Shown here piece by piece: positions 1,777 to 3,020 of a stretch of 64,000 nt of DNA. The stretch spans positions 44,511-108,510 of the forward strand of contig CACHAQ010000003.1 of assembly GCA_902577905.1 (NCBI GenBank), written 5' to 3'. The notes beneath the pieces were generated by a model. The model saw nothing but the letters and a program-made list of their open reading frames with translations. It was not told where the DNA came from and did no database searches. Position 1 is the first letter of the stretch; each line of letters begins with the position of its first letter. Position numbers and translations under genes: made by a program. Source of the DNA: an uncultured Alphaproteobacteria bacterium (GTDB lineage: Bacteria; Pseudomonadota; Alphaproteobacteria; HIMB59; GCA-002718135).

Positions 1777-1798
1777 AATGTTGTAAAAAAACAACATT
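1777..1798. repeat. Perfect inverted repeat AATGTTGT-N6-ACAACATT upstream of yggS
   Basis: Read directly from sequence. Confidence 0.6.
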
Positions 1799-1864
1799 GT
1801 TTCAAAAAATATACTAAATCATTATGCTTTTTTTGTAATTTATTCAATTTTTAAATATTAGACT

Positions 1865-1908
1865 CATTAATACAAGTATGTTTCTTGTATTTAATGAATA
1901 TTCATTAA
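1865..1908 (+). promoter_or_regulatory. Overlapping inverted repeats in porin leader (CATTAATACAAG/CTTGTATTTAATG and TTAATGAATATTCATTAA)
   Basis: Complementary arms read directly; ends 6 nt before the AAGGAG ribosome-binding site. Confidence 0.6.
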
Positions 1909-1924
1909 CTCAAAAGGAGTAATT

Positions 1925-2968
1925 ATGAAAAAAGAACTATTAATGGGAACTGCTCTAGTTTCTACGCTTGGTGCCGCTTCAGTTGCTGAAGCTGTAACAG
2001 CTACTATGAGTGGTAACCACCAAACTGGTATTGAGTTTGATTCACCAAATAGTGGAACTGACACAAATGCTCAGACCCAAGACAATAACTTTACTGTGTC
2101 ATTATCAGAAACTACTGATGGCGGTATGACTATTTCTTCAAGCTTTATGTTAGCTAATGAGGATGCAGTTGACGGTGACCTAGACGCTGGATTTACTCTA
2201 GCATTTACTGATGGATCTAAGCTTGATATCATAAATGCTGGTAACGCATCAGGATCACACGATGTTTCTATTCCAGGTTCAGCTGGTTCAGAAACTGTAG
2301 CAACAGCTACTTCTAATGCTGCTGAAACTGGTCTAGACTTTATGACTGGTGCATCTAAACAAGGTATTGAGTATCACACAGCTGCTGACTTCCTAGCTGA
2401 TGGACTAAAAATGTCTTTCTCAGCTTCAACTGATGGTGGTGAAGCTGCTACTGCGACTTACAGAACAGACGGTCACGTAGCAATAGGTGCAACTTATGTA
2501 ACCGATCTTGGTGATAGTGCTGTAACAATTGGTGCTGGTTGGTCTGAAATAGACGGATCAAAAACTGGTACTGCTGTAGCAAATGATACTGGTGGATTCC
2601 ACGTAGGTTTAAGTGCTGTAACTGGTGATTTAACTGTTGCTGTTGGTTTTGCTGATGGTAACAAAGCTGGTGTAGGCGCTTCATCTGCTAATGAAATCGC
2701 AGGTGACGTTGTAAAAGCTGGTGTTAAATATGTATCTGGTGATCTAACATTTAATGTTGGAATTGCTTCAGGTGATGCACAAGACTCTACAATTGGTTCC
2801 GTTTCCGGATCTGATGATTCAAAAGACGTAACTTCAGCTAGTATATCTTACGCTGTAGCTTCTGGTGTAACTGCAATTCTTGGTTATACTTCTGTAGAAG
2901 CAAGTGATGAAGGTGTTTCATCAACTGATGGATCAGCTTGGTACATCGGTGCTAATATGGCATTTTAA
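1925..2968 (+). CDS. Porin-like beta-barrel outer membrane protein
   Basis: Signal peptide MKKELLMGTALVSTLGAASVAEA, alternating beta-barrel-like sequence, C-terminal aromatic ...WYIGANMAF, AAGGAG RBS. Confidence 0.85.
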   Translation: MKKELLMGTALVSTLGAASVAEAVTATMSGNHQTGIEFDSPNSGTDTNAQTQDNNFTVSLSETTDGGMTISSSFMLANEDAVDGDLDAGFTLAFTDGSKLDIINAGNASGSHDVSIPGSAGSETVATATSNAAETGLDFMTGASKQGIEYHTAADFLADGLKMSFSASTDGGEAATATYRTDGHVAIGATYVTDLGDSAVTIGAGWSEIDGSKTGTAVANDTGGFHVGLSAVTGDLTVAVGFADGNKAGVGASSANEIAGDVVKAGVKYVSGDLTFNVGIASGDAQDSTIGSVSGSDDSKDVTSASISYAVASGVTAILGYTSVEASDEGVSSTDGSAWYIGANMAF

Positions 2969-2986: not shown

Positions 2987-3020
2987 AAAAAACGGCACTT
3001 TAACGAGTGCCGTTTTTTTT
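2987..3020 (+). terminator. Rho-independent terminator after porin
   Basis: AAACGGCACT-loop-AGTGCCGTTTTTTTT stem-loop with T-tract. Confidence 0.93.

Follow-up and report, generated by a model that had tools for sequence, protein, structure and literature searches.

The question raised by this locus is what the two inverted repeats in the leader of its porin gene are for. The leader lies in the window, i.e. the whole analysed stretch of 64,000 nucleotides (G000:C3:44511-108510), of a genome of 1.45 Mb that is 87% complete. It was compared with the leaders of relatives; the named relatives are single-cell genomes of uncultured Alphaproteobacteria. The order is probably AEGEAN-169/HIMB59 (PMC10308909). 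The hosts are numerous in the ocean and for the most part uncultured; their genomes are streamlined, and few regulatory elements are known from them.

The porin gene (1925..2968, plus strand, ATG at 1925) encodes a Porin_4 protein of 347 aa (Pfam PF13609 at 34.8 bits) and is divergent from a yggS-like gene. A search of the window's own genome found one porin copy only. A short DNA match at C1:147524 was rejected as a porin paralogue. A strong intrinsic terminator was found by terminator scan 3' of the gene (2987..3018, plus strand), so leader and porin are probably a one-gene unit. The scan found no intrinsic terminator in the leader itself; the only convincing one came after the gene, which speaks against a transcription attenuator. 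Near the porin, the minus strand (541-1134) encodes an orphan protein of 197 aa whose DNA-binding domain is of the OmpR type (Trans_reg_C); its gene overlaps yggS by 4 bp. It was found near the porin in 64 of 77 loci of the window's family and not in the sister family. This orphan is a candidate regulator of the porin.

The sequence-only reading had described the 5' leader of the porin as structured, with a pair of inverted repeats preceding the RBS. Its letters and coordinates were correct: CATTAATACAAG at 1865-1876, CTTGTATTTAATG at 1884-1896, TTAATGAATATTCATTAA at 1891-1908 and AAGGAG at 1914-1919. In the lone sequence, these features are near chance. For 64 kb of the window's composition, the expected number of perfect palindromes of ≥18 bp is one, as was found, and 13% of control positions likewise have a helix of ≥7 bp ending there. 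The significance of the leader therefore rests on the comparison between genomes, in which the described structure was borne out, with both repeats kept across the family. The upstream repeat is called P1 and the downstream one P2 below.

P2 (TTAATGAATATTCATTAA, 1891..1908) is an invariant perfect 18-bp palindrome, which could form an RNA hairpin with an AUAU loop or serve as a DNA dyad. A pattern search for P2 with its CTC tail was run on 162 genomes of the order. It gave matches in 94, nearly always with one copy per genome, and all of these genomes belong to the window's family (6 genera). None of the 52 sister-family genomes had a match, and a reversed control pattern gave no matches in the 162 genomes. 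Because a pattern search finds only its own target, the porin was sought by protein instead. The family porin was found in 95 genomes, and every readable leader had an exact P2. All 18 letters were common to porins down to 49% protein identity. Only two porin-bearing genomes were without a pattern match: in G073, a contig end cuts off the porin, and in G116, an exact P2 is followed by an 8-nt insertion. No P2 was found in viral contigs, and no palindromes of ≥14 bp like it were found before 29 porins from across the class. Over a tree of 10.35 substitutions per site, the P2 columns showed no change, barring one alignment effect.

The window's own genome has one exact copy of P2; a single site with two mismatches was taken as chance. 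A second match in G042 was discarded (one mismatch, within a coding gene). Genome G124 has two different porin/yggS loci (L156 and L157) with the same P2 leader, one of them at a contig end. They are either a duplicate or a mixed assembly.

P1 (1870..1890, plus strand) consists of the arms ATACAAG (1870-1876) and CTTGTAT (1884-1890) around the loop TATGTTT (1877-1883), with an optional pair 1869-1891 and an energy of about -8 kcal/mol at 25 C. When the 45 nt before P2 were examined, all 95 distinct leaders had a helix of 7-13 bp without interruption, whose end lay 0-3 nt from P2. The stem itself took about 40 different sequences among these leaders, and the stems of other clades included ATGAAAG/CTTTCAT, GTGTAAAA/TTTTACAC and TCGTGTGA/TCACACGA.

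The covariation analysis that had been suggested along with the first description came out positive for the arms of P1. In an 88-row alignment, two-sided changes were found at six of seven pairs (64 cells vs 17.6 in shuffles), and the covariation was lost when the partner was slid by 1-3 columns. As kinship among sequences can mimic covariation, a tree-aware null was built: the tree was calculated from the porin coding sequence, and each column's changes were moved to random branches in 1000 nulls. The observed pairing was 91%, compared with a mean of 55% and a maximum of 87.5% in the nulls; none of the 1000 was as well paired. Pair-to-pair double changes were found on 22 branches. These counts are conservative, as the alignment places the rows of other clades out of register. 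For the same reason, the right arm is blurred in the MAFFT alignment and RNAalifold missed P1 there, so that P1 was assessed by the fixed-structure count and the tree test. The 72 in-register rows contained nine G·U cells and no A·C cell, as expected if the porin strand pairs as RNA. The comparison of leaders shows P1 to be a conserved RNA stem. A helix kept for pairing alone would vary as P1 does; hence, P2 appears to be read by its sequence.

P1 and P2 are both absent from the porin leaders of the sister family. Other perfect palindromes of 14-22 bp were found there in 31 of 32 leaders, compared with 1.8% of control stretches. They are of five clade-specific kinds: AGTTTTAATTAAAACT, TATTAGATCTAATA, AACAATATATTGTT, GATTAATATTAATC and GTTTATATATATATAAAC. 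The exception is L162 (G025), with a hairpin but no perfect palindrome. Within the series (L158-L188, L232-L235), the L185 palindrome has one extra pair, added in both arms (GAGTTTTTAATTAAAAACTC), and that of L178 extends to CTTAGTTTTAATTAAAACTAAG. As RNA hairpins, the 14-mers are weak (0 to -1.6 kcal/mol at 25 C). Since these weak palindromes occupy the place of P1, a 5'-hairpin role may not extend to the sister family.

The position of these elements was considered relative to the promoter. An interrupted inverted repeat (TGTTGTAAAAAAACAACA, 1779..1796) with the consensus TGTTGYA-N4-TRCAACA precedes the predicted start site by about 80 bp. The half-sites were present in 90 of 95 family leaders and before all 28 of 28 sister-family porins, and the centre is free to vary. 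It is the single such site in the genome at ≤1 mismatch. The repeat is likely a transcription-factor site (activator or repressor) of the porin promoter. It is also kept before the porins of two families despite different neighbouring genes. A putative -35 box (TTGTAA, 1833..1838) and -10 box (TATTAG, 1856..1861) were identified by eye on the plus strand, with a 17-nt spacer; their spacing predicts a start at about 1867-1869. A scan for the strict promoter consensus did not report this pair, and the promoter is weak by consensus. Across leaders, the mean -35 log-odds peaked with the -10 box ending 7-9 nt before P1.

The distance from the centre of the upstream repeat to the 5' base of P1 was 81.3 nt (sd 1.1) in the window's family. 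In the sister family, the 5' base of the palindromes lay 79.4 nt (sd 1.9) from the repeat, with a distance to the ATG of 16-37. The spacing to the repeat is fixed in both families, which ties the element to the promoter. The element probably begins at the first nucleotides of the mRNA.

This position bears on the geometry that had been proposed for the leader. TTAATG was proposed to pair either upstream, with the extension arm CATTA (1865..1869, plus strand), or inside P2, so that two mutually exclusive hairpins would form a conformational switch. The extension is present in the letters of this genome, where the lengthened P1 (-11.2 kcal/mol at 25 C) outcompetes P2 provided that 6 nt of transcript precede P1. 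However, it is not conserved among relatives. The competing pairs (1865-1869 with 1892-1896) were 65.6% paired with no two-sided changes, the same as shuffles, and at two of the five pairs most leaders had no pairing. P1 (1870-1890) and P2 (1891-1908) are adjacent and able to form together, and they fold together in most relatives. According to the folding, the competing structure requires a transcript start at or before about 1865; as the start is predicted near 1868, most of the arm would be left out of the transcript. With 2 nt before P1, the competing fold was absent in 88 of 88 leaders, and with 6 nt, its probability exceeded 0.3 in only 19-38% of leaders. Moreover, the modelled SD exposure was equal in both folds. 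A switch at this position is very unlikely. A pairing of the 3' arm of P2 with TTAATG in porin codons 6-7 was also dropped, since this stretch varies among relatives.

The Shine-Dalgarno sequence AAGGAG (1914..1919, plus strand) lies 5 nt before the ATG and is invariant in alignment A2. It is partly enclosed in a small hairpin, P3 (1908..1920, plus strand), formed by ACTC (1908-1911) and GAGT (1917-1920). The predicted probability of P3 was ≥0.9, and its letters are invariant; the outlying genus L152 has TAATTAC/GTAATTA instead. In the minimum-energy fold of the leader, P1, P2 and P3 stand in tandem, and the modelled RBS hairpin would be independent of P1 and P2. Five sister-family loci (L160, L161, L175, L176 and L178) have an 8-bp helix around the SD (AATAATTA/TAATTATT) with the SD in the loop, similar to P3 in form and different in sequence.

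The proximity of A/U-rich stems to the SD, with P3 covering its GAG, would also suit an RNA thermometer, which had been one of the suggested functions of the switch. The ompA gene of Yersinia pseudotuberculosis carries one (PMC8245352) and, like the porin, is an outer-membrane protein gene with a structured 5' UTR. Unlike that case, no temperature response is predicted at the SD of the porin leader: in silico, its accessibility stayed at 0.25-0.27 over the whole range of 15 to 37 C. Rfam gave no covariance-model match, to a thermometer or to any other family, at gathering score or at E up to 1. We regard a thermometer as extremely improbable. The leader looks like a fixed, non-switching module of side-by-side hairpins.

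The conservation of P2 continues downstream in a nearly invariant block (1891..1937, plus strand), which comprises P2, linker, SD, start codon, codons 2-4 and the first base of codon 5. It had about 0 parsimony changes per column; in the discriminator, immediately 5' of P1, the columns had 24-40. Porin codons 2-5 (AAA AAA GAA CTA, within 1925-1939) almost never vary, third positions included. P2 can be separated from the RBS: three species tolerate 8-10 inserted nt between it and the SD, and L152 has P2 with a different linker.

Three explanations of the invariance of P2 were weighed. The least credible, to the point of being nearly negligible, is that P2 is conserved for a four-codon leader ORF (ATG AAT ATT CAT TAA, 1894-1908). 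Start and stop are in frame in every family member, P2 being invariant. However, no SD precedes the ORF, its codons never vary synonymously, the TTA before its ATG is equally invariant, and the sister palindromes contain no such ORF.

The DNA operator had been mentioned as an alternative in the sequence-only reading. The part of this proposal that holds is the perfect, invariant dyad at a fixed distance from the promoter. Such a perfect inverted repeat between start site and RBS resembles the operator of a dimeric regulator, and the sister palindromes favour a DNA dyad in two ways, being of low stability as RNA and perfectly symmetric across their centre. What fits poorly is that P2 occurs once per genome, which is unusual for a regulator's site, and that the sequence of the sister-family palindromes differs by clade. 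Moreover, the invariance continues through the RBS to codon 5, which a DNA operator would not need and an RNA-level factor could explain.

According to the third explanation, the block from P2 to codon 5 would be read as RNA by a trans-acting factor (an RNA-binding protein or an antisense sRNA) that controls ribosome loading; P2 would be the recognised hairpin, and P1 would keep it exposed. The invariance into the coding region and the RNA fold of P2 itself (-4.5 kcal/mol at 25 C) favour an RNA-level site. About 47 nt (P2, linker, SD, spacer and first codons) are almost without changes, and P3 folds as RNA as well. In E. coli, the translation start site of the ompA mRNA is targeted by an sRNA (PMC7509114), and the porin leader resembles MicA/ompA-type targets in that the mRNA encodes an outer-membrane protein and its translation-initiation region is conserved. 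In contrast to these, no sRNA was found: a DNA search of the own genome gave no antisense match to the block, and Hfq was not detected in the 87%-complete genome, which makes an sRNA less likely. P2 is also self-complementary, its symmetry being perfect through the loop, which an RNA hairpin does not need, and the tolerated insertions separate it from the SD. We consider this particular mechanism possible but rather unlikely. Overall, P2 is more likely a putative DNA operator than an RNA-level site: by the sequence evidence, the former has about an even chance, and the latter is a serious possibility that falls short of it.

For P1, the closest known systems are the 5'-terminal stem-loops that stabilise mRNA, such as those of E. 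coli ompA and papA (PMC3997798, PMC7509114). As in ompA, the mRNA encodes an outer-membrane protein, a stem-loop is predicted at its extreme 5' end, the stem letters are free while the pairing is kept, the RBS lies downstream, and RNase E is encoded in the genome. Unlike the ompA-type stabiliser, the porin leader continues after the stem-loop with another palindrome, which is invariant, and with a hairpin at the SD, and its 5' end is a predicted one. By this analogy, P1, as a stem-loop of about the first 23 nt of the porin mRNA (with the mRNA start placed by the promoter locking), would most likely guard the transcript against 5'-end-dependent decay of the RNase E type and thereby prolong the life of an abundant mRNA. 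P2 would be an 18-bp dyad in its own right, recognised by its sequence and bound by a dimeric regulator shortly after the start site, and the RBS would follow inside the small hairpin P3. This joint reading, a fixed module of 5' protection by P1, an operator in P2 and an RBS hairpin, is a reasonable proposal whose chances we put slightly below even.

No description of this porin leader was found in the literature searched, and a survey of structured RNAs in Pelagibacter is silent on porins. The leader appears to be new as an element and of a known kind, namely a 5' mRNA hairpin combined with a palindromic regulatory site. At least five kinds of palindrome occur in the sister family, and P2, slightly further downstream, is a sixth in the window's family. 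Across the order, we tentatively suggest that the promoter-locked palindrome of the porin was replaced wholesale several times, remaining exactly self-complementary throughout and nearly invariant per clade, and that in one family it was joined to a covarying 5'-terminal RNA hairpin. If true, this would be serial re-specification, with the regulatory site of the porin being renewed repeatedly at one promoter-locked place. The clade-specific palindromes form a ready-made series in which the wholesale replacement of a regulatory site can be studied. With the covarying P1, protection of an mRNA by a 5' hairpin could be tested cleanly in bacteria other than the models. For the cell, a leader kept letter for letter across a family before the sole porin found points to strong control over what the cell takes in.
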